Shown here piece by piece: positions 3,013 through 50,243 of a stretch of 64,000 bases of DNA. The stretch covers positions 1,724,011 through 1,788,010 of the forward strand of contig NZ_GL636091.1 in assembly GCF_000186465.1 (NCBI RefSeq), in the 5' to 3' direction. Every line of letters begins with the position of its first letter. Positions within the stretch are counted from its first letter, which is position 1. The stretch comes from Streptococcus australis ATCC 700641 (GTDB lineage: Bacteria; Bacillota; Bacilli; Lactobacillales; Streptococcaceae). The notes beneath the pieces are model-generated. The model worked only from the letters and a program-made list of their open reading frames with translations. It was not told the DNA's origin and did no database searches. Position numbers and translations under genes: made by a program.

Positions 3013-3018
3013 AGCTTC

Positions 3019-3027
3019 ATTGTACCA
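3019..3027 (-). promoter_or_regulatory. Extended -10 promoter of ktrB, 6 bp from the ATG
   Basis: On the minus strand the sequence reads TGG-TACAAT, then GAAGCT, then ATG. With normal spacing from -10 to transcription start, the first transcribed base is the A of the start codon. Confidence 0.6.
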
Positions 3028-3043
3028 TAAAAAGAGAATAGAC

Positions 3044-3808
3044 CTACAAGTGAAGAACCATTTCTAGGCACAATTCTAAGGCTTTATCGAATGCTTCAGA
3101 TCCCCAGTCACGCTGGTCATAATTTTCCAGGTCTGCAAGAGAATCTGCGGTAAATAGGAGCAAGCCCCAAACCGCATCACGAAGCTGGGCTACTGCTGCC
3201 AGTGAGGCGCACTCCATCTCCACCACACTACACCCTTCTTCAATGCGATAGGCCACCTTGTCAGGCGTTTCTCGATAAAAGCCGTCTGTCGACCAGGTCA
3301 TCACTTCTTGGTAGGGAATGGACTCTTGTTTTAGGACCCTTTCAATGGCAGTCAGTGCTCGACGATCTACTTCTATATAACGAGAAGGTGCTACATAATG
3401 GTAACTGGCTCCCTCATCTCGCAAAGCCTTGGTCGGGATTAAAAAGGCATTTTCTTCCATGTCCACCAAGACGCCACAGCTTCCTGCCGAAATGATCTTC
3501 TTCACCCCATAGCCGATCAACCAATCCATGAATTGGGCTGCTGCTGCAGATCCAACTGGCGCTTGAGCCAAGCAGATTTCCTCTCCTTGGTGCTCCATGA
3601 CATAAACCGGATAGGTCTTGGTAGCTGAGACAAAGCTAGCTACTTGTTTGGCTCCAGCAACTTTGGCAAAGCGGTCAATCTCATCCTCTAAGAAAGCATA
3701 AACGCATTTATCAGGCAAATGCAGGTCTAACCCCTCATGGGTCGGCATAATGACTGCCTGTGGGTTGTCGTCAAACTCTAAAATAGGAATTTCATGTTTA
3801 TGGATCAT
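3044..3808 (-). CDS. Nucleoside phosphorylase family protein
   Basis: 254 residues of the PNP/UDP (NP-I) phosphorylase family, which splits nucleosides with phosphate to a base and ribose-1-phosphate. The glycine-rich SAGSCGVL segment (about 107-114) and the EMECASLAAVA segment (about 193-203), holding the ribose-binding Met-Glu, are both present. Length and motifs fit the uridine-phosphorylase-like branch better than MTA/SAH nucleosidase, but substrate cannot be settled. A GGAGG site precedes the ATG and a TATAAT box lies at 3835-3840. It is divergent from the helicase gene and appears to be monocistronic. Confidence 0.82.
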   Translation of the reverse strand: MIHKHEIPILEFDDNPQAVIMPTHEGLDLHLPDKCVYAFLEDEIDRFAKVAGAKQVASFVSATKTYPVYVMEHQGEEICLAQAPVGSAAAAQFMDWLIGYGVKKIISAGSCGVLVDMEENAFLIPTKALRDEGASYHYVAPSRYIEVDRRALTAIERVLKQESIPYQEVMTWSTDGFYRETPDKVAYRIEEGCSVVEMECASLAAVAQLRDAVWGLLLFTADSLADLENYDQRDWGSEAFDKALELCLEMVLHL

Positions 3809-3964
3809 CTGTTGCCTCCAAACTTGTTTGTAACATTATATAAGTCTATCTAGCCGGTGTCAAGAAGAGATAGCAAAAAGGACTATTTTTCTTCCATAGC
3901 AACTCCCTTTCTAATGAATACCTTCAACTATGATATAATGGGGACAGTACAAGGGAGGAAACCA

Positions 3965-6679
3965 ATGTTACAAGAACTAGCCTTTACAGGCCAATGGAGA
4001 CACTATCAAAAACGCGTTCTCGATAAGAGTGACGCTTTTATGGCGGATGGCCACCTGCATTTGGTAGCAGCTCCTGGCTCTGGAAAAACAACCCTAGGAA
4101 TCGAATTTATCAGACGCTTTGGCCAGCCAACCCTGATCTTGGCTCCTACGGTCACCATTCGTCAACAATGGGTGGACCGGATTATCCAGGCATTCTTGAG
4201 TGATGAAAGCCAAGCAGAACAACTGATTTCACAAGACTTAAAACATCCTAAGCTGATTACAGTGGCTACCTATCAGGCCCTACACAGCGCCATGAACCAA
4301 GTCGTCGGTCAATCACAAGCTGAGGATACCGATGACCAGGCAGAGATTGAAACATTTGATTTCAAAGGCTTTGATATCTTTACTACTTTCAAGGCCATCT
4401 CACTTGGGACCCTTTGTTTAGATGAGTGCCACCACTTACGCAATGAATGGTGGAAGAGCTTGGAAGCTTTTCGTCAAGCCTTCCCTGACTTAAAGATGAT
4501 CTCCCTTACCGCCACCCCGCCCTATGAAGGGGATCCTGCCCTTTGGGATCGCTATATCCGCATGTGTGGTGAGATTGATGAGGAAATTACGGTTCCCGAA
4601 TTGGTCAAAGAAGATACCCTTTGTCCTCATCAGGACTATGTCTACTTCGCCTTTCCAACCAAGGAAGAGCAAGAGCAATTGGATGCCTTTAGCCAACAAA
4701 AGAATGCTCTCTTGCAACAACTGACTTCCGATCCCCTCTTTTGCCAACACCTCCAAAACTGCCAAGCCTTATCTGGTCAGATCAGCGACGATGAATTGCT
4801 CAATGAGCCCAAGTATCTCTCTGCTACCCTGATCTTTCTTCGAAGCAAGGGAATTGACTTTCCCAAACGTTTCCAGGACCTTTTAGGAGCCAAGAAACTA
4901 CCTGCTTTCACCCTGGACTGGCTTGAAATTCTCCTGCAAGGCCTGCTCTTTCAGGTGCCTCACTGGTACAATCTACCTGAGGAATACGAGAAGCAACTGC
5001 TTCATGAATTAAAAGCAGCCAGCTTGATCGATCGAAAACAAGTCAAACTGGTCCGCAACAAAAAACAAGACCTTCTACTCAACCAATCCCTCGGAAAACT
5101 TAATGCCGTCCGAGAGATTTTCAAGGCCGAATACCAGGCCCTTGGAAGCCAACTACGACAACTGGTCTTAACAGACTATATTCGTCAAGACTTTGAAGTT
5201 CATCTCGGGGATAAGGACGCCCAATTTACTCAATTGGGAGTACTCTCTTATTTCGAATCTATTCGCAGGGAAAGCTTAGAGCAAGCAACTCCTCCCGCCA
5301 TCGCTGTCTTAACCGGCAGCATCGTCATCATCCCGACGGTTGCTAAGTCAAGACTAGAAGAGCTTCTAGGTTCGGACAGACTGACATACCAAAGTGTCGG
5401 CCAATTATCTCCTGATGACTTTCTCAAGGTTCGCTTGGTTGGTTCTCAACATGATTTGGTGACAGCCGTGACCCAGCTCTTTCAAGAAGGGCTTATCCAA
5501 GTCGTCATTGGAACCAAGTCCCTTCTGGGAGAAGGCTGGGATGCTCCTTGCGTCAACTCTCTGATCCTAGCGAGCTTTGTCGGCAGTTTCATGCTCAGCA
5601 ACCAAATGCGGGGTCGTGCCATTCGAGTGTGGCCTGAGAATCCAGACAAGACTAGCAACATCTGGCACCTGGTCTCCATCAATCTTTCCCTAAAGAAATG
5701 GTATGAAAAGTCCGATCTTGAAAAGGAAGAGATCGAAGCCCTCACTGATCAGCTGAAAGAATACAGTCCTGATCTGGAACTCTTAGAAAGGCGGATGAAG
5801 CAATTTTTAGGCCTCCATTACAAGGAGCCCTTTATCGAATCCGGTATTGAACGTCTAGCCTTTGACAATATCCGCTATACCAAAAAACAGTTGCAAAAAC
5901 TCAATGAAGAAACCTTAGAGCGCTCCACCCATCGTCAAGAACTCCGAGACGGCTGGAAAAAAGCCCTGCCTATTCTGGAGAATATGGAGATTGCAAACGA
6001 GGTCCAAGTGGATAAACACTTCCTGCCCCTGGCCCTATTTTTTGACGCCAGGAAGCTAGCTCGTTGGCTGACGGCCGCTACTTTGACCGATTCTTTCGCC
6101 AACCTGATTTACTATTCACATAGAGGTGGATGGAATACAGCTTCTCTTATTCTTCTATTCGTCTTAGCTGTTCTCGCACTCCTTGCTTGGCTCCGTTACT
6201 ACCTCTATAAGAGTCCTTATAAACGGCTAGAAGTCTTCGGCCAGGCTATCCACCAAGCCCTACTCCGTTCTGGGCAGATCCAGACTCAAGCAACCCGCAT
6301 CCAAGTCGTACGAGACAGAAAGGATGCCATCAACACGCTAATCTATATGAAAGGCGGAACCATGCGGGAGAAGGAACTCTTCTCGCAAACCATGATCGAG
6401 TTTTTCGCTCCAATTGAAAATCAGCGCTATATCCTGAAAGCACAGGAAAAGGTGTCCGATCAAACAGAATATTTCGCTGTACCAAGCCTCTTTGACAAAC
6501 GGAAAGAGGATGCCCAAGCCTTTGTGGAGCAAATCCGAAAGAGCCTAGGTAAGTATGACCTCGTCTATACCCGAAGTGCCGAAGGTCGCGCTATTCTCCT
6601 TGATGCGCGCATTAAGGCCTTAGCTAATAAACAAGAGCGCACCTTCACCAAGAAACAAGTGATGTCGAATTTGAAATAA
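3965..6679 (+). CDS. Large SF2 (DEAD/DEAH, type III Res-like) helicase with a C-terminal membrane segment
   Basis: 904 residues from the ATG at 3965, chosen for its GGGAGGAAACC ribosome site; a TATAAT box sits about 30 bp upstream. The reading frame is open further 5' but the upstream start lacks such a site. Helicase motifs: Walker A GSGKT at 38-42, DECH at 153-156, TATPP at 182-186, and motif VI QMRGRAIR at 547-554. Between the two RecA domains (about 215-440) lies a long insert. Residues about 723-747 are a strongly hydrophobic stretch that looks like a transmembrane helix, followed by about 155 residues of unrecognised sequence ending in a basic tail. This architecture resembles the ResIII-type helicases of restriction and defence loci, but no nuclease, methylase or partner gene is adjacent. 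Function unknown; the ATPase fold is certain. Confidence 0.85.
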   Translation: MLQELAFTGQWRHYQKRVLDKSDAFMADGHLHLVAAPGSGKTTLGIEFIRRFGQPTLILAPTVTIRQQWVDRIIQAFLSDESQAEQLISQDLKHPKLITVATYQALHSAMNQVVGQSQAEDTDDQAEIETFDFKGFDIFTTFKAISLGTLCLDECHHLRNEWWKSLEAFRQAFPDLKMISLTATPPYEGDPALWDRYIRMCGEIDEEITVPELVKEDTLCPHQDYVYFAFPTKEEQEQLDAFSQQKNALLQQLTSDPLFCQHLQNCQALSGQISDDELLNEPKYLSATLIFLRSKGIDFPKRFQDLLGAKKLPAFTLDWLEILLQGLLFQVPHWYNLPEEYEKQLLHELKAASLIDRKQVKLVRNKKQDLLLNQSLGKLNAVREIFKAEYQALGSQLRQLVLTDYIRQDFEVHLGDKDAQFTQLGVLSYFESIRRESLEQATPPAIAVLTGSIVIIPTVAKSRLEELLGSDRLTYQSVGQLSPDDFLKVRLVGSQHDLVTAVTQLFQEGLIQVVIGTKSLLGEGWDAPCVNSLILASFVGSFMLSNQMRGRAIRVWPENPDKTSNIWHLVSINLSLKKWYEKSDLEKEEIEALTDQLKEYSPDLELLERRMKQFLGLHYKEPFIESGIERLAFDNIRYTKKQLQKLNEETLERSTHRQELRDGWKKALPILENMEIANEVQVDKHFLPLALFFDARKLARWLTAATLTDSFANLIYYSHRGGWNTASLILLFVLAVLALLAWLRYYLYKSPYKRLEVFGQAIHQALLRSGQIQTQATRIQVVRDRKDAINTLIYMKGGTMREKELFSQTMIEFFAPIENQRYILKAQEKVSDQTEYFAVPSLFDKRKEDAQAFVEQIRKSLGKYDLVYTRSAEGRAILLDARIKALANKQERTFTKKQVMSNLK

Positions 6680-6690
6680 AAGTTGTAAAA

Positions 6691-6725
6691 AACCATATTC
6701 CCATTGAAATGGAATATGGTTTTTT
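6691..6725. terminator. Bidirectional terminator
   Basis: Stem AACCATATTCC (6691-6701) pairs with GGAATATGGTT (6711-6721), flanked by A- and T-runs on either side, between the convergent helicase and tetR genes. Confidence 0.9.
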
Positions 6726-6747
6726 GGTTTGTTTCTATCAGATCCCC

Positions 6748-7371
6748 CTATTTCCACAAGCCACCTAAGATTTGCTTTTCGACCAAGGAAAGATCTTCAT
6801 CGGTCACTTGCCCATTAGTTCCAAGAATATAGAGCTGACCAAAATAGGCAAGCAGCGGGCCAATCAGAATACGCAGGAATTGGGAAATAGTCAGATCAGG
6901 ATTGATGCGAGGGTCCGCTTTCAGTTCTTGAAGGAGGTCACCAATTCTACCCTGAATGAAACTCCAAATATGTTCTTGCTCCTGCTTGATCTTTTCATTC
7001 GAAAATATCTCCTGTAACACGATTTTTAAGAGAGCTTGATTGGTTTTGAGGTAGTTCATTCGGTCATAAACGAAATAGTGAATTTTTTCCTCTGTTGTTT
7101 GAAAATTTAAGAGTTGATCCAGAAAATTTCCCAGAAGACTAGGAAGGATCGGATGTAAAATAGCCGTCAGCAACTCATCTTTGGTCTGGAAATACTTGAA
7201 GAGAGTGGCTTGGCTAAGCCCGGCATGCTCCGCAATTTGAAGGGTTGAAGTCCCATTATACCCCTTGGTCGAGATCAAATCGACGGCTGCCTGCATAATT
7301 TTCTTCTTTCCTTTGGGATAGTCTGCTCCCTCTAGATACGCTTCAAACGACTCAAAAATACTCTCGTTCAT
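6748..7371 (-). CDS. TetR-family regulator of the adjacent ABC exporter
   Basis: 207 residues. The N-terminal helix-turn-helix is clear (GTSTLQIAEHAGLSQATLFK) and the C-terminal ligand domain is divergent. I chose the ATG at 7371 because GAGG lies 6 bases upstream; a GTG at 7383 is in frame but its ribosome site is too close. It is the last gene of a three-gene minus-strand operon after an ABC ATPase and permease. The operon promoter carries two TetR-type palindromes, so the protein most likely represses its own operon until a ligand, probably an export substrate, binds. Ligand unknown. Confidence 0.88.
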   Translation of the reverse strand: MNESIFESFEAYLEGADYPKGKKKIMQAAVDLISTKGYNGTSTLQIAEHAGLSQATLFKYFQTKDELLTAILHPILPSLLGNFLDQLLNFQTTEEKIHYFVYDRMNYLKTNQALLKIVLQEIFSNEKIKQEQEHIWSFIQGRIGDLLQELKADPRINPDLTISQFLRILIGPLLAYFGQLYILGTNGQVTDEDLSLVEKQILGGLWK

Positions 7372-7398
7372 GTCCTTCCTCACATCCTCTTATTATTT

Positions 7399-8481
7399 TT
7401 ATACCTTACGATACCGACGCAATCCGACAATATTCAGCATTGTCAAAGCGACAAGGAAAAGCAGTAAAACACCGATATTTGGCAAAATATCCCCAAGGTT
7501 ACGTCCGTAAAGAATAATCTGACTCATGGCATCACCTGAGTAGGTCAAAGGCAAGAACTTCCCAATTGTTTTTGCCCATTCTCCCATTGAATCAAGAGGA
7601 ATGATTCCTGAGAAAAAGAGCTGCGGCATAATCACAAGAGGAATAAATTGCATCATTTGGAATTCTGATTTGGCCAAGGTGGACAAGAGAATTCCGAAGG
7701 CGAGTGCTACAAGAGCCAATACTACATTAACTATTATAATATTTAATAAACTTCCGACAACTTCAATATTCAACAACCAGATAGCTGCTAAAACAACAAC
7801 CGCTGTTTGAAGAATAGCGATGATCCCATAAGACATCATGTAACCATAGACGATTTCAGAGCGTTTAACTGGAGTGGCTAATAAGCGATCTAGGGTGCCG
7901 CTGGTGCGTTCTTTCAACAGCGCCATCCCTGAAATCAAGAAAACAAAGAAGAAAACGACAAATCCAATCAAGACTGGAATCATACTGGCAAAGAAGCCTG
8001 TATCTTCATTCCCATACTCATAAGATTCCTTAATTTCTGGTGATTTTGCATCCAGTTTCAATTGAGGAAGGGCCTGTTTAACACGAGTTAATAGTTGATT
8101 GGTGCCTTCACTGGCGATACTGGTTCGCAATACTTGACGGGTCATAGCAGTTTTCGAAGCATCTGTATTGGCATAATCTACCAGATACTCCCCGTCTTTA
8201 TAAGAAATGACGGCGTCGACTTTCTCATCAGCCAAGTCTTCTTTGGCTTGATCCATGTCTTTGTAAGTTTTCACACTGACATGGTCCATATCATCCATCT
8301 TCCTTACCAAACTAGTTGGTAGATCCCGTGTTGCAAGCTTGACGTTCACGGTTGTACTAGCCGAAAACATGAGGTTCATCAACCACATGATAAAGACTGG
8401 AGCCACAAACATCATGGCAAGGGTTCGTTTGTCACGAAGCAATTCTTTGATAACTTTTTTTGCAATGGCAAGGGTTCTCAT
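7399..8481 (-). CDS. ABC-2 type exporter permease
   Basis: 360 residues with the ABC2_membrane_3 layout: one N-terminal membrane helix (about 20-42), an extracytoplasmic domain of roughly 130 residues, then five membrane helices in the C-terminal half. The ATG follows the upstream ATPase stop by one base and has an AAGGAG site. Paired with the ATPase it would export a drug, lipid-like compound or peptide; the substrate cannot be read from sequence. Confidence 0.88.
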   Translation of the reverse strand: MRTLAIAKKVIKELLRDKRTLAMMFVAPVFIMWLMNLMFSASTTVNVKLATRDLPTSLVRKMDDMDHVSVKTYKDMDQAKEDLADEKVDAVISYKDGEYLVDYANTDASKTAMTRQVLRTSIASEGTNQLLTRVKQALPQLKLDAKSPEIKESYEYGNEDTGFFASMIPVLIGFVVFFFVFLISGMALLKERTSGTLDRLLATPVKRSEIVYGYMMSYGIIAILQTAVVVLAAIWLLNIEVVGSLLNIIIVNVVLALVALAFGILLSTLAKSEFQMMQFIPLVIMPQLFFSGIIPLDSMGEWAKTIGKFLPLTYSGDAMSQIILYGRNLGDILPNIGVLLLFLVALTMLNIVGLRRYRKV

Positions 8482-8482
8482 C

Positions 8483-9199
8483 TTATTCTCCTTCTGCTTT
8501 CAAAAAGACTTCTTCAATACTTGACACACCATAATTTTCTTTGAGTTTTTTTGGTGTATCAAAGGCAATGATGTTTCCACCTAACAAGAGGCCAACCTTA
8601 TCTGTCAACTCTGCTTCATCCATGACATGGGTGGTGACCAAAATGCCTACACCCTTGTCTCTAAGTGTGATTAATTCCTTCCAGATTTTCTTTCGAAGAG
8701 AAGGATCGATTCCAACCGTCGGTTCGTCCAAAATCAAGAGCTGAGGATTTCCTAAAAGCGCAATCGCCAGCGACAAGCGTCGTTTCATCCCTCCGGAATA
8801 ACCAGATACGGCCTTATTTAAGTGATCTGTCAGATCTACCACCTGAGCCACATGGGCAATTTCTGTTGTTAAGTCTTTTTTGGAAAGGCCTTTTAGCTGA
8901 CCGAAAAATTCCAAATTTTCTTGCCCTGACAAGGCCTCATATAAAGCATCAGACTGGGCCATATAGCCAATATCTCCCAGAATATGACGATTGGGCATGG
9001 TGTGGTCTAAGACTAAAGCGATACCGCTATCTGCCTTTTCCATTCCTAACATGGTTTTAATCATGGTTGATTTACCAGCACCAGAAGGACCGATTAGACC
9101 AATGATTTCCCCAGACTGTAATTCAAAACCAACGTGGTTTAACACCAGTTGTTGACCAAAAGATTTTTGTAAATCTTGTAAATGTAGCAATGTTTTCAT
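8483..9199 (-). CDS. ABC exporter ATP-binding protein
   Basis: 238 residues from the ATG at 9199, which has a perfect AGGAGG six bases upstream; the in-frame ATG only four codons earlier in the track would place the start inside the operator. Walker A GPSGAGKST, a signature variant YSGGMKRR, Walker B LLILDEPTVGID and the TTHVMDEA switch are all present, typical of DrrA/CcmA-like ATPases driving ABC-2 permeases. First gene of the ATPase-permease-tetR operon. Confidence 0.9.
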   Translation of the reverse strand: MKTLLHLQDLQKSFGQQLVLNHVGFELQSGEIIGLIGPSGAGKSTMIKTMLGMEKADSGIALVLDHTMPNRHILGDIGYMAQSDALYEALSGQENLEFFGQLKGLSKKDLTTEIAHVAQVVDLTDHLNKAVSGYSGGMKRRLSLAIALLGNPQLLILDEPTVGIDPSLRKKIWKELITLRDKGVGILVTTHVMDEAELTDKVGLLLGGNIIAFDTPKKLKENYGVSSIEEVFLKAEGE

Positions 9200-9211
9200 A
9201 TGCATCCTCCT

Positions 9212-9231
9212 AAGTGAGTGTTTACTCACTT
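9212..9231. promoter_or_regulatory. TetR operator O2
   Basis: AAGTGAGT-GTTT-ACTCACTT, an inverted repeat with 8-bp arms lying between the -10 box and the ribosome site of the ABC operon. Near copy of O1. Confidence 0.85.
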
Positions 9232-9246
9232 TTTAAGTATGAGACT

Positions 9247-9275
9247 ATTATAGTGAGTGAACACTCACTTGTCAA
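9247..9275 (-). promoter_or_regulatory. Perfect consensus promoter of the ABC-tetR operon
   Basis: TTGACA (9275-9270) and TATAAT (9252-9247) with exactly 17 bp between them. The spacer is almost entirely filled by operator O1, so bound repressor would block polymerase directly. Confidence 0.93.
9252..9269. promoter_or_regulatory. TetR operator O1 within the promoter spacer
   Basis: AGTGAGTG-AA-CACTCACT, a perfect 8+2+8 inverted repeat located between the -35 and -10 boxes. Confidence 0.88.
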
Positions 9276-9307
9276 GTAGAAAATTTCATTTTTTTCAGAA
9301 AGATAAA

Positions 9308-9333
9308 AACACCAGATGAATACATCTGGTGTT
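9308..9333 (-). terminator. Terminator hairpin
   Basis: 11-bp stem AACACCAGATG/CATCTGGTGTT with a 4-base loop, followed on the minus strand by TTTTT. It sits just beyond the AraC relic, whose terminator it probably once was. Confidence 0.85.
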
Positions 9334-9371
9334 GATAATGGAAATTTCTGCTGTTAAGCTTCTGTCTGCAT

Positions 9372-9480
9372 CTACTCGCGATACTCTGAAATAGTCTGTC
9401 CGGTCCATTTTTTAAAGGCTCGTGAGAAGGAAGACACTTCGGAGTATCCTAGTAAATAGGCTACATCAACTGTTGTCATG
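9372..9480 (-). pseudogene. 3' relic of an AraC-family regulator
   Basis: Too short for ordinary ORF calling. Translating the minus strand gives [20 protein letters not shown] followed by [10 protein letters not shown] and a stop (9372-9374), the hallmark second helix-turn-helix of AraC/XylS regulators. Upstream the frame is closed by a stop near 9519 and no sensor or first HTH is recognisable, so only the last 35 or so residues of the gene remain. Its terminator survives beside it. The 9276-9593 interval otherwise holds only the LtrA gene leader. Confidence 0.85.
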
Positions 9481-9593
9481 TAATGACAATTTGCGTCACA
9501 ATGAAATTGATTGGTCTACTCCCCTTCCTTCCATCATATACTGTCATTTTTCTGATATAATAAATTGTTCAAACATCGCAGAAAGGATAACCC

Positions 9594-10739: not shown

Positions 10740-10740
10740 A

Positions 10741-10774
10741 AAATTCTAGTAGATATTTTCTACTAGAATTTTTT
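10741..10774. terminator. Bidirectional terminator
   Basis: 13-bp stem AAATTCTAGTAGA/TCTACTAGAATTT with 5-base loop and T-runs in both directions, between the convergent ltrA-like and adh genes. Confidence 0.92.
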
Positions 10775-10776
10775 CG

Positions 10777-11814: not shown

Positions 11815-11892
11815 AGGAACAACCTACTTTCTATTGCTTACTTACCTACAGTATACACTTTTTCTTAGGCTTCTGCTCGTACCAACTCGTCA

Positions 11893-12798: not shown

Positions 12799-12815
12799 AA
12801 TCCTATTTCCTTTGT

Positions 12816-12821
12816 TATAAT
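12816..12821 (+). promoter_or_regulatory. sczA extended -10 box
   Basis: TGT-TATAAT on the plus strand; six bases later begins the czcD-sczA operator, which therefore covers the predicted transcription start of sczA. Confidence 0.65.
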
Positions 12822-12827
12822 AGATTC

Positions 12828-12844
12828 ATGAACATCATGTTCAT
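12828..12844. promoter_or_regulatory. Operator palindrome between czcD and sczA
   Basis: ATGAACAT-C-ATGTTCAT, a perfect 8-bp inverted repeat in the divergent intergenic region. Likely SczA binding site by position and symmetry. Confidence 0.8.
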
Positions 12845-12894
12845 TATCATTATCTAACATTCACAACAGAAAGGATAGGGGCAAACCGTTTAGG

Positions 12895-13470
12895 GTGTCC
12901 GTTACTGAACAGTTTGTTCGAAGTGTCCATATGACAGCACAGGATCGTCGCATCACCAAAACTCGAAAAGCTATCTATCAGGCGTTCTTACACTTACTCA
13001 ACCAAAAAGACTACGAGGCCATCACCGTTCAGGAAATCATTGACCTTGCTGATGTGGGGCGCTCAACCTTTTACAGCCATTACGAGAGCAAGGAATTATT
13101 ACTTGACGAGCTCTGTCAAAAACTCTTTCATCACCTCTTTGAGCGAGATGATCAGCTCTCTCCCCAAGACTACCTAGCCCATATCTTTCAGCATTTCAAG
13201 AAAAACCAAGACCATGTAACCAGTCTCTTGCTTTCCAAAAATGATTATTTTATCCGGCAACTGAGAAAAGAACTGGAACACGACGTCTACCCCATGGTAG
13301 CTGAAAAACTGATTCAATCGCACCCCAACATCCCCCACTCCTATCTCAAACACCTGGTCGTAACCAACTTCATTGAAACCCTCAGCTGGTGGCTCAAAAA
13401 AGGCAAGACTTACACCGAACAAGAAGTCATTCAGTTTTATTTGGAGATTTTAAACGTCGCTTCTAACTAA
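12895..13470 (+). CDS. sczA: TetR-family zinc-responsive regulator, SczA type
   Basis: 191 residues from a GTG at 12895, or 179 from the ATG at 12931; AGGATAGGGG lies about 12 bases before the GTG and neither start is ideal. TetR helix-turn-helix ITVQEIIDLADVGRSTFYSH at about 42-61 followed by the TetR_C_7-like helical domain. Divergent from czcD with a shared palindrome, exactly as sczA-czcD in S. pneumoniae, where SczA activates czcD when zinc is high. The symbol rests on that synteny and family. Confidence 0.85.
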   Translation: MSVTEQFVRSVHMTAQDRRITKTRKAIYQAFLHLLNQKDYEAITVQEIIDLADVGRSTFYSHYESKELLLDELCQKLFHHLFERDDQLSPQDYLAHIFQHFKKNQDHVTSLLLSKNDYFIRQLRKELEHDVYPMVAEKLIQSHPNIPHSYLKHLVVTNFIETLSWWLKKGKTYTEQEVIQFYLEILNVASN

Positions 13471-13508
13471 GGAGCGATCTTACATCATGTATCATAGAAA
13501 GGAAAACT

Positions 13509-13841: not shown

Positions 13842-13879
13842 AAAAGCTCAGGTTTTTTCAATGAAAACTTGAGCTCTTT
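13841..13879. terminator. Bidirectional terminator
   Basis: AAAAAGCTCAGGTTTT pairs with GAAAACTTGAGCTCTTTTT (one bulge) between convergent genes. Confidence 0.85.
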
Positions 13880-13886
13880 TTATTTA

Positions 13887-25503: not shown

Positions 25504-25707
25504 ATACTTATCTCGTTTTTTCTGATTGAGCTGTTGATCGATACTTTCGACCAACTTCCCTAAGATATAGCTGACTTGTAAATTTCTCAATATCAAGAGA
25601 GCCCAAAAGATAGCTGCTAGGTAGCTTTCCCTCATCACAGCATCATTAAAAAAATAGGTTTCCAAGGCTGTAAAGATAGCCATAGTCCAAAATTGACGTT
25701 TATTCAT
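25495..25707 (-). CDS. DUF3272 family small membrane protein
   Basis: 70 residues, with a hydrophobic stretch from about 6 to 50 broken by a short polar turn, and a Lys-rich tail (NQKKRDKYKK). This small family is streptococcal and commonly sits beside dnaX; function unknown. No Shine-Dalgarno: an extended -10 TGG-TAGAAT ends six bases before the ATG, predicting a leaderless mRNA. Confidence 0.82.
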   Translation of the reverse strand: MNKRQFWTMAIFTALETYFFNDAVMRESYLAAIFWALLILRNLQVSYILGKLVESIDQQLNQKKRDKYKK

Positions 25708-25713
25708 ATTGTT

Positions 25714-25722
25714 ATTCTACCA
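25714..25722 (-). promoter_or_regulatory. Extended -10 promoter of the DUF3272 gene, 6 bp from the ATG
   Basis: TGG-TAGAAT, AACAAT, ATG on the minus strand. Confidence 0.55.
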
Positions 25723-27422: not shown

Positions 27423-27919
27423 TAGTCTACTACTCCAAACATCCTAAAATTCCAATTTGTTTTTTCAAGCAAGATAGCTACAAAACGTTCCAAATAAAGG
27501 CGATCTAGATCATCATAATCTCCCACTCGGTCCGAATCTAGATCCAACACTCCCAGCAACTGGTCTTTCAAGACCATGGGAACCACAATCTCACTCATGG
27601 CGCGACTGTCACAAGAGATATAATTGGCATGCTGGGTCACATCCTCAATTACCAGCGTCTCTCTTTTCTCTGCTGCTTCTCCACAGACGCCTTTTCCTAA
27701 GGCAATGTGGACACAGGAAACCTGACCTTGAAAGGGGCCTAAAATCAGCTCTTTTTGATCATAAAGATAAAAACCTGCAAAGACCGAATGTGGTAGGGCT
27801 TGATTGAGCAAAGCACTGGCATTGGATAAATTGGCCAAGGCATTGCTTTCACCCTCTAAAAGAGCTTCTAACTGGGCTAGTAAGAGTTGGTAACGTGATT
27901 CTTTTTCCTGTATATTCAT
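27422..27919 (-). CDS. Free methionine-(R)-sulfoxide reductase (GAF domain)
   Basis: 165-residue single GAF domain of the fRMsr (YebR-like) family. The three cysteines used by the enzyme are in place: [16 protein letters not shown] supplies two and [15 protein letters not shown] the third. It reduces free Met-R-sulfoxide with thioredoxin and helps repair oxidative damage. The start ATG at 27919 has an extended -10 box 7 bp upstream, AAAGG being too close to act as ribosome site, so translation may be leaderless. Overlaps dnaX. Confidence 0.88.
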
Positions 27920-27926
27920 AACCTTT

Positions 27927-27935
27927 ATTATACCA
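27927..27935 (-). promoter_or_regulatory. Extended -10 promoter of the fRMsr-dnaX unit, 7 bp from the ATG
   Basis: TGG-TATAAT, AAAGGTT, ATG on the minus strand. Confidence 0.6.
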
Positions 27936-32030: not shown

Positions 32031-33414
32031 AATTGCGATTGTAATAGAGGCGATGACTTTCCACTTGGTGGTTTAAGAGTTCATCAACCGTCACGATGGT
32101 GTAGCCTTGCGATTGAAGGTATTCAATCACGGCTGGAAGGGCATTAATAGATGTTTGGTGAATATCGTGCATCAGGATGATCGATCCTGGTTTGACTTGT
32201 TTTTTCACTTCTGCCAAGATGGCTTGTGTATTGTGGGTCTTCCAATCCAGAGTATCCACATCCCACATGATAAAGGCCTGATCAACGGCATATTGAATGG
32301 CACTATTAATCGAACCATAAGGAGGACGAGTAATCTTCGTTTGCACTCCTGTGACCTTTTGAATCACTTCCTTCGTATCCATGATTTCTTTTTGGGCAGC
32401 CTCCAAAGGCAACTTGGTTAAGACAGGATGATTCCAGGTATGGATTCCGATTTCATGTCCTTCCTGACGTACCCGTTTAGCCACTTCAGGATAGGCCGAG
32501 ACATTCTTCCCAAGCATAAAGAAAGTCGCCTTAACATGGTACTTGTTGAGGATATCCAGGGCTTGAGGGGTCGTCGTTGGATCTGGACCATCATCAAATG
32601 TTAAGGCAACCATCTTAGCATGACGTTGAGTTTGGTAGGCCTCATAAGCTTGAAGATCTCCAGGATTCAGACGAGCAGAATCAATCACATCATAGAGCTT
32701 CGAAAGGGGTACATCGAAGGTTTCCATGCCCTCAATAGTAACTGGAAGGGTAATAGAAAGAACCCCTTGATTGTAGGTGAACTGCCAGCCTGCCATATCA
32801 CTTGCTGAGACAGCTTGCATTATCTCCTCAATTCTTTCTTCCCCTAACTGTAGAAAGACCAGCTGGGAACGCAATTCTGTTAGGAGAATTTCTTTGGATA
32901 GATCTGCATCCGTAAACAATTGTGAAAAATGGAAGACAGCTCCTTCATCCGTTAGATAAAGGAGAGGAAGTTTGTCGATCCCATCTTTGATAAACTTGCC
33001 ATTTTTCCACTTGTACTGGGTCTTCTTCACCTGATAAGGATGAACCCCTACAAATGGGTCTTCTGAACGTTCGGTATGGTAGAACAAAAGCTCTTTTGCT
33101 TGCTGGTTCTTTTTCTCTTCTTGGGGAAGAGAGCCAACGTCAGCCAAAATTCTCTCTTTAACCACTGCGATGGGTTCTTCATTATTTTTCGGGTAGTAAG
33201 CCGCGACATATGTTTGACCAACCATTCCTTTTTGAAGGCTGGTATCCTTGTCTTTTTCAATTGCTTCTTCTTCCCGAATTGCTTTGGAAAACTGTTGATT
33301 ATAATTTTTGATGGCGCGTGCTTCCTCAATCTTCTGATAAGCTAGGTAAATTCCTCCGATAAAAAGGAGGTTTAGAATAATGAGGATAAACATTTTCAAG
33401 TAGGAATTCTTCAT
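32029..33414 (-). CDS. pgdA: Peptidoglycan N-acetylglucosamine deacetylase PgdA
   Basis: 461 residues. Membrane anchor at about 8-25, a middle region (about 40-265), then a C-terminal NodB deacetylase domain: TFDDGP with Asp274-Asp275, metal ligands His325 and His329, RPPYG at 363-367, DTLDW near 387-391 and His416 in LMHDIH. These match the pneumococcal enzyme almost residue for residue. It removes acetyl groups from GlcNAc in peptidoglycan, giving lysozyme resistance. The ATG is 6 bases beyond an extended -10 box and has no Shine-Dalgarno. Single-gene unit. Confidence 0.95.
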   Translation of the reverse strand: MKNSYLKMFILIILNLLFIGGIYLAYQKIEEARAIKNYNQQFSKAIREEEAIEKDKDTSLQKGMVGQTYVAAYYPKNNEEPIAVVKERILADVGSLPQEEKKNQQAKELLFYHTERSEDPFVGVHPYQVKKTQYKWKNGKFIKDGIDKLPLLYLTDEGAVFHFSQLFTDADLSKEILLTELRSQLVFLQLGEERIEEIMQAVSASDMAGWQFTYNQGVLSITLPVTIEGMETFDVPLSKLYDVIDSARLNPGDLQAYEAYQTQRHAKMVALTFDDGPDPTTTPQALDILNKYHVKATFFMLGKNVSAYPEVAKRVRQEGHEIGIHTWNHPVLTKLPLEAAQKEIMDTKEVIQKVTGVQTKITRPPYGSINSAIQYAVDQAFIMWDVDTLDWKTHNTQAILAEVKKQVKPGSIILMHDIHQTSINALPAVIEYLQSQGYTIVTVDELLNHQVESHRLYYNRN

Positions 33415-33420
33415 ACTCTT

Positions 33421-33429
33421 ATTATAGCA
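33421..33429 (-). promoter_or_regulatory. Extended -10 promoter of pgdA, 6 bp from the ATG
   Basis: TGC-TATAAT, AAGAGT, ATG on the minus strand. The predicted first transcribed base is the A of ATG. Confidence 0.65.
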
Positions 33430-37797: not shown

Positions 37798-37799
37798 CA

Positions 37800-40343: not shown

Positions 40344-40440
40344 GAGTAACTCCTTCTTCATTTTTTATCATCTTCTATTCTAACATAAATCCTACTAACT
40401 GTAAGGTAAGAGGGGGCAAAACCAGATCTATAAAAAAATA

Positions 40441-40466
40441 AAGTCTGAGATGATGACCTCAGACTT
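40441..40466 (-). terminator. Terminator of the pst operon
   Basis: AAGTCTGAG/CTCAGACTT stem with an 8-base loop, minus-strand TTTATTTTTT tail. Confidence 0.8.
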
Positions 40467-40473
40467 TCTTTTC

Positions 40474-41127: not shown

Positions 41128-41141
41128 TTACTTTCCCTTTC

Positions 41142-41900: not shown

Positions 41901-41936
41901 GTTTTCATCCTTATGTTGTTTCAATGTTGCCAAATC

Positions 41937-42740: not shown

Positions 42741-42751
42741 TTCTTCTCCTT

Positions 42752-43636: not shown

Positions 43637-44537
43637 AGTTCTTCTTACCTCTTTCTTTCGTGATCAATTTGATAACGCTGTTGAATGCCAAACTCATCAG
43701 CAAGAGCACCAAGGCAAGTGACCAGAGAACGTTGTTGTTAACAGTTCCCATAACCGTATTTCCGATACCCATAGTCAAGATAGAGGTCAAGGTGGAAGCT
43801 GGAGTCGTTAAAGATGTTGGAACAACCGCTGAGTTTCCGACCACCATCTGAATCGCCAAGGCTTCACCGAAGGCACGGGCCATTCCAAAGACAACTGCCG
43901 TAAAAATACCTGAGCGAGCGGCCTTTAAGGTGACATGCCAAATCGTTTGCCAGCGAGTCGCTCCCATAGCCATACTCGCTTCCCGATAGTGACGAGGTAC
44001 TGCCCGTAAGCTGTCTGTTGTCATAAAGGTCACAGTTGGAAGGATCATGACAAAGAGGACAAAGACCCCTGACAAGATCCCAAATCCTGTCCCACCAAAG
44101 ATGGAACGAACAAATGGAACCACCACTTGCAAACCAATAAATCCGTAAACAACAGAAGGGATCCCTACCAACAACTCAATGGCTGGTTGTAAGAGACGAG
44201 CTCCCTTTGGAGAAACCTCTGTCATAAAGACTGCCGCACCGATGGCAAAAGGCGTCGCCACCAAGGCAGACAAAAGGGTTACAATGAAGGAACCCAAGAT
44301 CATTGGCAAAGCCCCAAATTCTTTCCCTGACGGATTCCAAGTGGATCCAAAAAGGAAACTAAAGACATTAACCTTGTTGACAAAGAAGGTCGATAATCCC
44401 TTTTGGGCTACAAAAATCAAAATCAAAGCTACAACAAAGACAATCAAACTCATACAGCAGAAAGTAATGGTTTTACCAAATTTTTCCAAACGAGAATTAT
44501 TGGACTTTGCGAGCATTTTTTTTGCTACTTCGTTCAT
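43626..44537 (-). CDS. pstC: Phosphate ABC transporter permease PstC
   Basis: 303 residues, six membrane helices, with the EAA-type EASMAMGATRWQTIWHVTLK segment. 17 bases after pstS in the operon. Confidence 0.95.
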   Translation of the reverse strand: MNEVAKKMLAKSNNSRLEKFGKTITFCCMSLIVFVVALILIFVAQKGLSTFFVNKVNVFSFLFGSTWNPSGKEFGALPMILGSFIVTLLSALVATPFAIGAAVFMTEVSPKGARLLQPAIELLVGIPSVVYGFIGLQVVVPFVRSIFGGTGFGILSGVFVLFVMILPTVTFMTTDSLRAVPRHYREASMAMGATRWQTIWHVTLKAARSGIFTAVVFGMARAFGEALAIQMVVGNSAVVPTSLTTPASTLTSILTMGIGNTVMGTVNNNVLWSLALVLLLMSLAFNSVIKLITKERGKKNYAR

Positions 44538-44554
44538 GTTTTACCTAATTCTTC

Positions 44555-45421
44555 TTATTTCTTCGTAATGTTACCGTCAAGATCACGGCTGATTTTCATA
44601 TCATTGATTGGGATATAGCCCATCTTACCAACGATTTCCTGCTGGACCTCATCTGTCATCATATAATCCAAGAATTTCTTTGCCAGTTTACTTGGCTCAC
44701 CCTTGGTATACATGTGTTCATAGGACCAAATTGGCCAGTTATTATTCACTACGTTTTTCTTAGTTGGTTCATAGCCATTTAACTTCATGGTTTTGACACT
44801 ATCATCCACGTAGGTAAAAGCCAAATAAGAAATGGCACCTGGAGTCTGGGAAACAATGTTCTTCACCATTCCGTTGGAATCCTGTTCTTGAGCCTGTTTA
44901 GGATCTTTGCCGTCCATGATGATGTCATCAAACACAGCACGGCTACCAGATCCTACTGCCCGGTTCACAATGGTAATTTCCAAGTCCTCACCACCCAATT
45001 GCTTCCAGTTGGTATATTCACCAGTAAAAATCTTACGCAATTGTTCAGTAGTTAAATCGTCTACGGAAATCCCCTTGTTCGCAATGATAGCTGTTCCTGC
45101 TACTGCTACTTGATGATCCACCAAGCTAGAAGCAGCGATACCATCTTTTTCCTCTGCAAAGAGGTCACTATTTCCAATGTCGACAGCTCCTGATTGGACC
45201 TGAGAAAGACCTGTACCAGATCCACCCCCTTGGACATTGACAATCTTACCGGGATGCTCTTCAATATAACGATCTACCACCCCTTCAACGAGCGGTTGTA
45301 GGGCTGTTGATCCAACAGCTGTAATCGCTTCTCCACGGTCAATCCAAGACGCACAGGCAGATAGAGAAGCTGCAAGTGCTACTGTTGCTAGCCCAAGGAC
45401 TAGCTTTTTGCATTTATTCAA
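44555..45421 (-). CDS. pstS: Phosphate-binding lipoprotein PstS
   Basis: 288 residues. Signal peptide with lipobox LSACAS places Cys at the mature N-terminus. Phosphate-binding segments [20 protein letters not shown] and [11 protein letters not shown] are present. Initiates at TTG 45421 with GGAG seven bases upstream. Captures phosphate for PstCAB. An extended -10 (TGT-TATAGT, 45528-45533) lies about 105 bp upstream. Confidence 0.95.
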
Positions 45422-45527
45422 TGTAAGTCTCCTTGAATCATAATCAAATATCGTTTAAATCTTATCTCTAAACACTTGGTCATCTTCTAGTATTCTAGCA
45501 AGAATCACTTTATTTCCACTATAACAT

Positions 45528-45536
45528 AGAAAGACG
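45528..45536 (-). promoter_or_regulatory. Promoter -10 region of the pst operon
   Basis: TGT-TATAGT on the minus strand, leaving a leader of about 100 bases. No clear PhoP/PnpR box was recognised. Confidence 0.45.
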
Positions 45537-45551
45537 GCATTTCCTAATAAT

Positions 45552-46856
45552 TTATCTAAATCTCAAACCTTTAGGAAAGAAATTTTTTAAGGTCCGTCCA
45601 GTCACTTTTGCAAAACCTAAACCATTGCCTCCAGCTAAGACCTGATACCAACCATTTTGGTAGTCTTGATCTAGCTGAATAGTCTCTCCAGCCACGTACT
45701 TCATAAAGTCTGGATCCGACAAGCTGACCGATTTCTTCGCTTGATCTGGTTTCAGAGCTAAGCCCAAAGCAAAGCTAGGTTCAAAGCGATTTTTCTTGAA
45801 AGTTCCAAGGTGCAAGCCATTGCGAGCAATCTTGACTTTTTTCAAATCAGGAAGTCCAACTGGCAAGAGATAAAGCTGGTCTCCAAAACATTGGTAGAGG
45901 CCCTCTAAATCAATGGCTAAACAGTCCTTGGCAAAAGCTTGCCACAGTTTCTTCTGCTCAGCCGTTAGATTGGAACGTCCTTCCTTGATCTTCTTAACTT
46001 CAGGCTTTCCGTGATAAAGGAATTTAGCAACAAATTGCCCTTCCCCTTTGAAACGATGGGGATACATCCGGGCTGTTTCAGGATAGCCGATCCCCTCTAC
46101 CATGCCATTGATTTTTTCAATCGGTAGCAATTCCAACTCATATTCTTCTAAGAGCCAAGAGACAATCTCTTCATTCTCTTCCGGTGCCCAGGTACAGGTC
46201 GAATAAACTAGCTGTCCACCTGGTGCCAGCATCTTGATAGCATCTGTTAAAATTTCTCTTTGGAGACCAGCACATTGGGCTGGATAATCAGGATGCCAAT
46301 AGTCCATAGCATCTGGCTGCTTTCTAAACATTCCTTCACCAGAGCATGGTGCGTCCAAAACAATCAAATCAAAATAGGCTGGGAAAACCTTAGCCAAGCG
46401 ATCGGCTGATTCATTGGTCACCACGACATTACGGGCTCCAAAGCGTTCGACATTCTCGACCAAAATCTTAGAGCGGCCCTTGTGGATTTCATTGGAAACG
46501 AGGAGTCCTTGATTGTCTAAATAAGAGAGCAAGTGGGTCGTCTTGCCACCCGGTGCTGCCGCAAGATCCAAGACCTTCATACCTGGTTTTGGATGAGCTA
46601 CTTGTGCTACCATTTGGGCAGCCGGTTCTTGCGAATAGACCAGTCCAGTGACATGGGCAATGGATTTCCCTGATACCTTGCCATAGTAACTCCAAGGCAT
46701 GCCTGGAATAGGTTCATCACCTCTGATTTGCTCCGCCTTCAATGGATTAGTCCGATAGGCAGATATTGCTGGATCGTCAAAGGTTTGAAAGAAGGCCTTG
46801 GCCTCTTTTCCAAGTAATTGGGTATATTTTTCTTTGAATCCTTGAGGAAAGGTCAT
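45552..46856 (-). CDS. rsmF: RsmF-type rRNA cytosine-C5 methyltransferase
   Basis: 434 residues of the NOL1/NOP2/Sun family. SAM site LDLAAAPGGKTTHL, and the two catalytic cysteines in LDAPCSGEG and YSTCTWAPEEN. A C-terminal RNA-binding domain (from about 300) is as in RsmF/YebU. Methylates 16S rRNA; the exact base cannot be read. The ATG overlaps the upstream stop by four bases. Confidence 0.9.
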   Translation of the reverse strand: MTFPQGFKEKYTQLLGKEAKAFFQTFDDPAISAYRTNPLKAEQIRGDEPIPGMPWSYYGKVSGKSIAHVTGLVYSQEPAAQMVAQVAHPKPGMKVLDLAAAPGGKTTHLLSYLDNQGLLVSNEIHKGRSKILVENVERFGARNVVVTNESADRLAKVFPAYFDLIVLDAPCSGEGMFRKQPDAMDYWHPDYPAQCAGLQREILTDAIKMLAPGGQLVYSTCTWAPEENEEIVSWLLEEYELELLPIEKINGMVEGIGYPETARMYPHRFKGEGQFVAKFLYHGKPEVKKIKEGRSNLTAEQKKLWQAFAKDCLAIDLEGLYQCFGDQLYLLPVGLPDLKKVKIARNGLHLGTFKKNRFEPSFALGLALKPDQAKKSVSLSDPDFMKYVAGETIQLDQDYQNGWYQVLAGGNGLGFAKVTGRTLKNFFPKGLRFR

Positions 46857-47626
46857 GCGTCTTTTCCTTTCGTCAAAAAAGGTTGAATCTCATCTAGTTT
46901 ACAAGTTGGTACCATCATGATGGGCTCCAAGGTCTCATAGTTAGGTTCTTTTCCTTCCAAAGTCAAGACAGAGTAGCCTAGGCACTCGCCCATAATAGCT
47001 GCAGCGGCATAATCCCAAGGCCAGATATAGCTAAAGTACCCTAAAATGCCACCAGATAGAATCTTGGTAAAGCTGATACCAGCGCTCCCGTAGACCCGAA
47101 TCCCCAAGCATTCTGCTCCCAGATCCGCCATGCCCCAAGCATTGGACTTGAGCATGCCGACATTAGAAGCCACTAATAAGTCCCCAAGAGGCCGATTTTG
47201 AAACGGTTTTAGTTCTTTGTCATTGCAAAAGACTCCAAAATCCTTTCCACCAAAAAAGAGATGGTCGCGCATGACATCATAGATCAAGCCAAACTGGCCA
47301 AGACCTTCTTCAAAATAGGCAACCATAACAGCAAAATCTTCTTTTTGGGTCACAAAATTATTGGTCCCATCAATGGGATCAATCACCCAAACCTTACCGA
47401 AGTGAATAGGAGCACGAAGTTCATCTTCTTCAGCAAAAATTTGATCTTCTGGATAAGCTTCCAAAATCTTACGGACCAGGGTTGCTTGCACTTCTTGGTC
47501 CATCTGCGTCACCAAATCTGTCGGATTTGTTTTGACAGTAATCGCTAGCTGGTCATGTAAGTGTTCTCTTAGATAGCTTCCTGCTTCTTTGACAATGGTC
47601 TTAGCAAATTCTAATTTATTGATCAA
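46853..47626 (-). CDS. Inositol monophosphatase family protein
   Basis: 257 residues starting at TTG 47626, which has GGA upstream and gives the normal family length. The open frame upstream to 47743 runs through the overlapping UPF0223 gene and is spurious. Metal-binding motifs are EEDE near 65, [13 protein letters not shown] near 80-92, and [10 protein letters not shown] near 205. In SuhB-like proteins these hydrolyse inositol-1-phosphate or similar. It overlaps the UPF0223 gene by 11 bases, so translation is coupled. Confidence 0.85.
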
Positions 47627-47894
47627 TCGAAAACCATCCTTCCCCTTTTTCTTTCGCGGCTTTGGTTGCACGGTAAAGTGAGTAGTCGCTGACCTCTTCA
47701 AACTCCTTGCCCAGACGCTTTTCTTCGCCAATACTTGGGACAACTTTCTTAAAGGCCTTATAGGCTTCTAGGTAGATACGAGCATCTGCCTTTTGTTCAT
47801 AGGCTTGTTCAACCTGATTAAAAAAAGAAAGCACCGAAGCAAGCTCTTCAGTGCTCCACGATAAATCGAGTGGGTAACTATAATTTTTATTCAT
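47616..47894 (-). CDS. UPF0223 family protein
   Basis: 92 residues, all helical, starting [20 protein letters not shown] and ending EGWFSIDQ, the family pattern. Function unknown. Starts one base after the Spx stop region in a tight minus-strand operon. Confidence 0.9.
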
Positions 47895-47895
47895 A

Positions 47896-48297
47896 TTAAT
47901 GGATCTCCGCTCTTAATGTAGCAGATCTTAACTCTTCCTTACGATATCCTCGAGGGAGAAATGCACGGATTTCATCCTCATTAAAACCAATTTGCATCCG
48001 TTTCTTATCTAGAATAATTGGGCGACGCAAAAGACTAGGATTCTCCTCAATCAACTTGATTAAAGCAGAAATCGATAAATCCTCTACATCAACATTTAAC
48101 TTCTGAAAAATTTTAGAACGAGTTGAAATAATATCGTCTGTACCGTTCTCAGTTAGAGCTAAAATATTACGCAACTCCTCAGTTGTTAAAGGACTCGTCA
48201 TAATATTGTGTTCCTTAAAAGGAACCTCATGTTTTTCTAACCAAGCCCGGGCCTTCCGACAGGATGTACAACTCGGAGACAAAAATAATGTAATCAT
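47896..48297 (-). CDS. Spx-family transcriptional regulator
   Basis: 132 residues from the ATG at 48297 (GAAGAGAAGAAC upstream). ArsC-like fold with redox switch Cys10-Thr-Ser-Cys13, and [13 protein letters not shown] segment [15 protein letters not shown]. Binds RNA polymerase alpha subunit and redirects transcription in thiol stress. Streptococci have two Spx proteins; location suggests SpxA1, but I cannot separate them by sequence alone. First gene of the spx-UPF0223-IMPase-rsmF cluster. Confidence 0.9.
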
Positions 48298-48390
48298 GTT
48301 CTTCTCTTCTTTTTTTGGACACACTTAGCTGACTCTATTATACAAAATTATTCCATGCTTGCATAGTGATTTTTTAATTTAGACAAAGAA

Positions 48391-48413
48391 AATTCTCCCC
48401 TTAAGGGAGAATT
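48391..48413 (-). terminator. Terminator of ribF
   Basis: AATTCTCCC/GGGAGAATT palindrome with short minus-strand T-run. Confidence 0.75.
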
Positions 48414-48424
48414 TCTAACAAAAA

Positions 48425-49342
48425 TTAATTTGTCCATTTACGAGCCAAAATCTCATCCTGGCGCAGTTGCTCCACAAGAGCTTCTACACTGTCAAATTTG
48501 ACCATTTCTCGAATTTTGTCTAACCAAAAAATCCGAATGGTGTGCCCATAAATATCTTTTGAAAAATCAAAAATATTGGCTTCAAAGCGAAGCTCCGTCC
48601 CATCAAAGGTAGAGTTTTTCCCTACAGAAGCCATCCCACGGTGACGTTTCCCCAGCACTTCTACTTCAACCACATAAACACCATCTTGAGGAAGATGGGT
48701 CCGATCGATCGGTGCAAGGTTGGCTGTTGGAAAACCAATGGTGCGCCCTCTTGCATCTCCATGAACTACGATGCCACGGCTGGATAAGGGATACCCCAAA
48801 AGATTGGCTGCTTCTTTCACTTGGCCAGAGGCAATGGCCTGGCGAATACGGGTCGAGCTGATTTTTTCGCCCTGGTCTAGGACAGGTGGAACCACTATGA
48901 CTTGGCCTTTAAAATAGGTTCCTAAATCACTAGCTACTTTCTTGTCGCTACCAAAGCTATAATCAAAGCCTGCCACTAAGACACGCGCTCGAAGTCTTGT
49001 TAGGTAGGTAGCCACGAATTCTTCAGCTGTATGAGCCGCAAAATCACTGGTAAAATCAATGAGATAAAGATCATCGACTCCAAGTTCTTCCATTCGTTTA
49101 AAACGCTCCTCTGGATTTTGGAGGTGGAGGAGTAATTCTGGTTGGTAACGAGCAAAAGCCAATTTTGGAGATTCTGGAAAGGTCAAAACAGCTACTCGAA
49201 GTCCTTGCTCATCGGCAATGGCGCGAGCTGTCCGAAAGAGCTCCTGATGCCCACGATGAAGACCGTCAAAATAGCCCAAGACAAGAACGGCATCTGCTTG
49301 AGCTTTTATTTCTTTTTCACTAGTTACATAACAAATGTTCAT
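48425..49342 (-). CDS. ribF: Bifunctional riboflavin kinase / FAD synthetase
   Basis: 305 residues from the ATG at 49342. N-terminal FAD synthetase (VLVLGYFDGLHRGHQ, STRIRQAI) and C-terminal riboflavin kinase (GRTIGFPTANL, FDGTELRFEAN). An extended -10 TGT-TACAAT ends six bases before this ATG with no Shine-Dalgarno, so I prefer it over the in-frame GTG at 49360, and a leaderless mRNA is likely. The promoter overlaps the truB stop. Confidence 0.94.
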   Translation of the reverse strand: MNICYVTSEKEIKAQADAVLVLGYFDGLHRGHQELFRTARAIADEQGLRVAVLTFPESPKLAFARYQPELLLHLQNPEERFKRMEELGVDDLYLIDFTSDFAAHTAEEFVATYLTRLRARVLVAGFDYSFGSDKKVASDLGTYFKGQVIVVPPVLDQGEKISSTRIRQAIASGQVKEAANLLGYPLSSRGIVVHGDARGRTIGFPTANLAPIDRTHLPQDGVYVVEVEVLGKRHRGMASVGKNSTFDGTELRFEANIFDFSKDIYGHTIRIFWLDKIREMVKFDSVEALVEQLRQDEILARKWTN

Positions 49343-49346
49343 AAAT

Positions 49347-50243
49347 TTATTGTAACACACTTTCTGTCAGAAAAACCTTGCGAGGTTTGTAAAGTTCTTC
49401 CCTTTTTTCCAAAATGGCTATCAATTTCTCTTGGTAAAAAGCAGCTAACTCTCTGGCTTCGCTCTCAACTGGAATAAAGCGTCCCACTTGGACTTCACCG
49501 ACCTCTTCTACTGTCAGCTCCACTTTTTCCAGATCCCCGGTTCCAATCTCAAGTGGATGAAGGAAGCTCAAATCTCCTTGACTTACCTTTTCAGCCACTT
49601 CTTCCAGGGTTAGGGCATCTTCTAGTGACAAACCAGCGGCACTGGTTCTGGTCAAATGAGACATATGGGCTGCATAACCCAACTTTTGACCAAGGTCCAC
49701 CGACAAGGTCCGGATATAGGTACCCTTGCTGCATTTGACCCGGAAGCGAAAACGGGCCAGGCCTTCCTTGTAGCCAATATCACTGGTACGCGTAAAGTCA
49801 TAAATGGTCACCTGTCGAACCGGCCGTTCCACTTCTTCACCTGCACGCGCATATTCATAGAGCTTGCGACCATTGACCTTGACAGCCGAGTACATGGGCG
49901 GTACCTGCTCGATCTCTCCCACCATTTGGGCAATCATGTGGTCTACCTCTGCTGCATCTAAAGGTGATTCCACTGGAGTCCGCTCAACGATTTCCCCACT
50001 GGCATCTTCCGTCGTGGTAGAAAATCCCAAAGTGATTTCTCCCTCGTAGATTTTACCCTCATCTTGCATAAATTCGACCATACGGGTCGCTTTTCCTACG
50101 GCAATCGGAAGCACCCCGACCACATCCGGGTCCAGAGTCCCTCCATGGCCAATCTTCTTGGTGCCTAAGATTTTCCGAAGTTTAAAGACCACATCATGCG
50201 AAGTCATGCCCGCTTCTTTTTTTATATTAATAATTCCATCCAT
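49347..50243 (-). CDS. truB: tRNA pseudouridine-55 synthase
   Basis: 298 residues from the ATG at 50243. Catalytic Asp in [20 protein letters not shown], plus [25 protein letters not shown]. Converts U55 of tRNA to pseudouridine. An in-frame GTG at 50285 lies only 9 bp after a TGG-TATAAT box; which start is used is open. ribF begins five bases after its stop. Confidence 0.93.
49349..49357 (-). promoter_or_regulatory. Extended -10 promoter of ribF, 6 bp from the ATG
   Basis: TGT-TACAAT, AAATTT, ATG on the minus strand, overlapping the end of truB. Confidence 0.55.

Follow-up and report, generated by a model that had tools for sequence, protein, structure and literature searches.

Extended -10 promoters 6-7 bp before ATG point to ordinary leaderless genes in a streptococcus of the Streptococcus australis/S. 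rubneri group

In Streptococcus pneumoniae D39, whose 5' ends have been mapped, 70 of 768 operons (~9%) are reported to be leaderless, and many transcription start sites are described as having a -10 or an extended -10 element only (PMC6212727). The same report includes a leaderless pbp2a reporter that was translated well and in which the addition of a Shine-Dalgarno (SD) site changed nothing (PMC6212727). For S. pyogenes, 67 leaderless mRNAs (8.6%) have been described, with extended -10 boxes (PMC6431027), and for S. agalactiae 78 leaderless genes, all with AUG and 90% starting on A (PMC4448216); the S. agalactiae share is put at 8% in that paper and at 9% where it is cited by PMC6431027. Fifty-four leaderless transcripts are given as common to S. 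pyogenes and S. agalactiae, 39 of which are also found in S. pneumoniae (PMC6431027), and in two enterococci the reported leaderless fraction is below 1% (PMC7724050). An in silico study of 2011 predicted TA-led leaderless genes in the Lactococcus-Streptococcus clade and elsewhere, from a TANNNT signal ~12 bp ahead of the start codon (PMC3160421).

The window (the whole 64-kb stretch of DNA that was analysed) comes from a streptococcus of the S. australis/S. rubneri group and contains five genes, ktrB, a DUF3272 gene, fRMsr, pgdA and ribF, that are very probably leaderless in the ordinary way, judging by their sequence geometry, the spacing statistics of related genomes and conservation. All five lie on the minus strand and carry, as the initial annotation described, an extended -10 box 6-7 bp before ATG and no usable SD site (Table 1). 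The spacer between the -10 box and ATG is 6 bp in ktrB, the DUF3272 gene, pgdA and ribF (TGnTAnAAT-N6-ATG) and 7 bp in fRMsr; the first T of the hexamer falls at -12 in those four genes and at -13 in fRMsr, in agreement with the ~12 bp of the TA-led genes. The geometry is thus like that of the TA-led genes, whereas the signal described there is the TANNNT core without the TGn extension (PMC3160421). The extended -10 boxes are also like those of S. pyogenes and S. agalactiae, although these are other species (PMC6431027, PMC4448216), and the comparison with S. pneumoniae D39 is one within the same genus, between mapped 5' ends there and sequence geometry here (PMC6212727). The start codon is ATG in all five genes, as expected of bacterial leaderless genes with their AUG starts, and a start point set by the -10 box would fall on or within a few nucleotides of the start codon in each of them.

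Table 1. Positions in the window of the five promoter/start sites, their coding sequences and one further pattern match.
Feature	Position	Strand	Comment
ktrB promoter/start, TGGTACAAT-N6-ATG	3010..3027	-	predicted transcript start at A of ATG, 3012
ktrB coding sequence, 460 codons, TrkH/Ktr-type K+ channel subunit	1630..3012	-	Pfam TrkH match
DUF3272 gene promoter/start, TGGTAGAAT-N6-ATG	25705..25722	-	predicted leaderless start 25707
DUF3272 small protein, 70 codons	25495..25707	-	PF11676
fRMsr promoter/start, TGGTATAAT-N7-ATG	27917..27935	-	predicted leaderless start 27919
fRMsr coding sequence, GAF-domain protein, 165 codons	27422..27919	-	Pfam GAF
pgdA promoter/start, TGCTATAAT-N6-ATG	33412..33429	-	predicted leaderless start 33414
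pgdA-type peptidoglycan deacetylase, 461 codons	32029..33414	-	Pfam PgdA_N + Polysacc_deac_1
ribF promoter/start, TGTTACAAT-N6-ATG, overlaps truB end	49340..49357	-	predicted leaderless start 49342
ribF coding sequence, riboflavin kinase/FAD synthetase, 305 codons	48425..49342	-	Pfam + NCBIfam
Additional N6 match, not regarded as a leaderless gene	12813..12830	+	ATG in inverted repeat before TetR-family gene

The five proteins belong to ordinary cellular families according to Pfam and NCBIfam. In NCBIfam, RibF passes its cut-off, the matches to TrkH and PgdA fall below theirs (an equivalog cut-off in the case of PgdA), and the DUF3272 and fRMsr proteins have no match. The name fRMsr is that of the initial annotation, its profile basis being Pfam GAF only; the protein is 96-98% identical to those of the six nearest loci, which come from S. 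australis, S. rubneri, S. xiaochunlingii and another Streptococcus. Pfam also supports dnaX directly behind fRMsr and truB before ribF. Five of the 56 genes listed for the window is of the same order as the published 8-9%, although that figure counts operons or mRNAs and not genes. A narrow literature search, centered on dnaX and ribF, returned nothing useful on these genes as leaderless, and one on dnpM's counterpart dpnM was equally unproductive.

None of the five starts has an SD match of at least 4 nt at a usable distance; the AAGG before fRMsr is only 2 nt from the ATG, and so is no usable SD site. A scripted scan of the first 45 codons found no SD-led start in ktrB, the DUF3272 gene, pgdA or ribF, and a single one in fRMsr, a TTG at codon 27, which we discounted. 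When the best start within 45 codons was taken for each of the 56 genes, the SD match was at least 5 nt long in 38, 4 nt in 10 and shorter in 8. These figures are biased towards SD sites, since the best of several starts was taken, from a list hand-chosen from the table of open reading frames, and the 38 include fRMsr by way of its codon-27 TTG. Read with this bias in mind, the contrast that had been drawn with AGGAG-type sites elsewhere in the window broadly holds. No good -35 box was found, the best agreeing at 2-3 of 6 positions. One further start was considered, the truB GTG at 50285, which has an extended -10 box at 9 bp; we rejected it as leaderless because the usual N-terminus of TruB seems to begin 14 codons further in, where the frame contains a 12-residue stretch that we take to be this N-terminus.

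What decides the matter is how far the ATG lies from the -10 box. We measured this distance in the nearest genome (G001), which shares 24% of the window's sampled 31-letter words, from each TGnTAnAAT to the ATG of frames of at least 50 codons in 20 stretches totalling 400 kb, counting all ATGs after a box, true starts or otherwise. There were 11 cases at 6 bp and 5 at 7 bp, flanked by 2 over 0-5 bp and 12 over 8-24 bp; at longer distances there were 44 over 25-37 bp and 1 over 38-40 bp. Once three stretches in synteny with the window had been removed (leaving 17 stretches, 340 kb), the counts were 11 (6-7 bp), 2 (0-5), 9 (8-24), 33 (25-37) and 1 (38-40). In this reduced set, 24 of the 33 starts at 25-37 bp have a 4-nt SD match, against 3 of the 11 at 6-7 bp; in two of these three the match is a GTGA that overlaps the extended -10 box itself. 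Sorted by start codon, the 6-7 bin holds 11 ATG, no GTG and 2 TTG frames. This two-peaked spacing is the expectation for a leaderless class alongside a leadered class.

The spacing is specific across the genus as well. In 13 Streptococcus genomes the pattern TGnTATAAT-N6-ATG occurs 289 times, with 15-27 sites per genome, against 7 in total for the reversed pattern; the counterpart with N12 occurs 59 times, against 11 reversed. The looser pattern gave 93 matches in G001 against 55 reversed. Overall, the genus-wide evidence from the spacer is strong. A pair of leaderless-type starts was also seen at locus L014, at ATG 9288 on the plus strand and ATG 10728 on the minus strand (locus coordinates), each with TGnTAnAAT at 6 bp; the two lie near 1109.3 and 1110.7 kb of G001, 1.4 kb from each other and convergent.

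Conservation was surveyed gene by gene in a sample of 31 genomes of the genus, from which at most 30 loci were taken for each gene, with a classifier that tries every upstream in-frame ATG, so that false positives are possible. For fRMsr, 26 of 30 loci have the extended -10 box, three are SD-led and one has neither. All 34 named Streptococcus loci keep TGnTAnnnT before an in-frame ATG, at 6 bp in 12 and at 7 bp in 22, in a scan that used words of the query peptide, among them the eight residues at its N-terminus, and hence favours like N-termini. Among the 22 distinct upstream sequences of fRMsr, the columns of TGnTATAAT and of ATG do not vary, unlike most of the others. The only Lactococcus fRMsr locus (L055) has a leader: its TGATATAAT box stands 34 bp upstream of the ATG, with AGGTG between them. 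The DUF3272 gene has an extended -10 box at N5-8 in 24 of the 29 loci with a tblastn match (a plain -10 box in one, neither in four; the thirtieth locus had no tblastn match). For ribF, the survey gave 19 extended and six plain -10 boxes, two SD sites and three loci with neither out of 30; over all 53 ribF loci fetched, the box is extended in 33, plain (without TGn) in 14 and missing from the expected place in six. At one ribF locus (L075) a TGATAAAAT box is followed 6 bp downstream by a GTG just before the ATG, possibly a leaderless GTG start or a 3-nt leader.

The leaderless form of ktrB and pgdA is not retained genus-wide. Ten of 30 ktrB loci have the extended -10 box, 15 are SD-led and five have neither, three of these five being broken or remote matches. 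In the SD-led ktrB loci (L112-L115, L125-L135) the start lies 6-9 codons further in than in the ktrB of the window, and the leaderless state of this gene appears to come and go between clades by a switch of start. The pgdA survey likewise gave ten loci of 30 with the extended -10 box, 13 SD-led and seven with neither, many of the 30 being remote homologs.

Because the spacing shows these peaks and the orthologs keep the geometry, we favor leaderless mRNAs from extended -10 promoters, as first proposed for these genes; the same evidence favors the starts put forward for ribF and the DUF3272 gene. The mechanism that we infer for 5' ends, sigma factor, growth conditions and ribosome route would run as follows. 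The housekeeping sigma-70-type RNA polymerase would use the extended -10 promoter, TGn-TAnAAT, without a clear -35 box, and would start transcription 6-7 bp downstream of the -10 box, at the A of the AUG. The resulting mRNA would have neither 5' leader nor SD site, and ribosomes, probably 70S, could load directly onto the 5'-terminal AUG in ordinary growth. As a rule, TGnTAnAAT-N6-ATG helps to place the starts of genes with no SD site, such as ribF, the DUF3272 gene and ktrB, and flags internal promoters within apparent operons, for example at truB|ribF. The ktrB orthologs form a natural series from leaderless to SD-led, in which it can be asked why streptococci retain leaderless genes. One answer, speculative and in our view improbable, is that fRMsr (with dnaX behind it), the DUF3272 gene and ribF form a core kept leaderless across most of the genus by a common response to a signal at the level of translation (the IF2/IF3 balance, for instance, or the supply of free 70S ribosomes), and that genes like ktrB would join or leave this regulon by switching between the leaderless start and the SD-led start 6-9 codons in.

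Among the alternatives to leaderless transcription, the one that fares best is that the five genes are read from longer read-through transcripts and translated by coupling or reinitiation, the -10-like boxes being incidental. It fits ribF best: in the window, 4 nt separate its ATG from the stop codon of truB, and the eight loci closest in ribF identity (72-99%) show the same gap. In addition, ktrB, the DUF3272 gene and ribF all follow closely behind a same-strand frame. Against this, in the 28 ribF loci with the -10 box in place and truB upstream, the gap measures 4 nt in eight, 19-246 nt in another 19 and 902 nt in the last, while the distance from the -10 box to the ATG stays at 5-8. We therefore rejected reinitiation after truB as a general explanation for ribF, and reinitiation does not account for the spacing-specific enrichment across genomes; for the set as a whole we regard it as very unlikely.

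Less likely again is that the genes form a class apart, whose translation depends on ribosomes altered under stress, such as those with MazF-trimmed 16S rRNA. Such a proposal has been published for E. coli, and it is named in a discussion of the conservation of streptococcal leaderless transcripts (PMC6431027). A regulon of the MazF type would be expected to have the toxin in the genomes that carry the feature. Our toxin search, which covered the PF02452 family (MazF/PemK), instead found no match in 25 of 31 Streptococcus genomes, including G001 and 24 of the 30 others, yet each of the 13 scanned genomes has 15-27 strict sites; the family is present in six of the 31 genomes and in three of 14 named control genomes. 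Ribosomes altered by MazF are thus left unsupported by the distribution of the toxin, and the membership of the five genes in ordinary cellular families also speaks against a stress class. The authors of the E. coli model have reportedly published a reply to criticism of it. That model is contested (PMC6561025), and the good translation of the pneumococcal leaderless reporter, on which an added ribosome-binding site had no effect (PMC6212727), also speaks against the proposal. A separate translation route, which had been suggested from the shared design, is not supported; the geometry is general in streptococci and was predicted in 2011 (PMC3160421). The leaderless geometry of the five genes is an already known, genus-wide streptococcal feature.

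The weakest alternative, that AT-rich DNA by chance yields TGnTAnAAT boxes near ATGs from which five were picked, is scarcely credible for the whole set given the 6-7 bp peak with low counts on either side in G001, the genus-wide excess over the reversed controls and the retention of the spacing in diverged orthologs, although the single members pgdA and ktrB are backed by fewer relatives. Taken alone, the window is weak evidence, its pattern being only weakly above chance: TGnTAnnnT-N6-ATG has 5 matches in the 64 kb where 2.10 are expected, a number reached by 6 of 100 shuffles, and the N7 variant gave 4 matches against 2.21 expected (17 of 100 shuffles).

One of the five N6 matches in the window, overlooked in the initial annotation, is probably no gene start. 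We rejected this plus-strand match at 12813 as a further leaderless gene: its frame has 9 codons in the window and 16 in G001, and its ATG lies inside a perfect inverted repeat, TGAACATCATGTTCA. Downstream of the repeat is a TetR-family gene (12895-13470, Pfam), and the match is probably a TetR-type operator and not a member of the set. Between 12813 and 12930 on the plus strand, the TGAACATCATGTTCA repeat comes immediately after a TGTTATAAT box, and a similar CTGAACAGTTTGTTC is found further down, before the TetR-family gene; from this arrangement the repeats are possibly a candidate autoregulatory operator that would overlap the transcription start.
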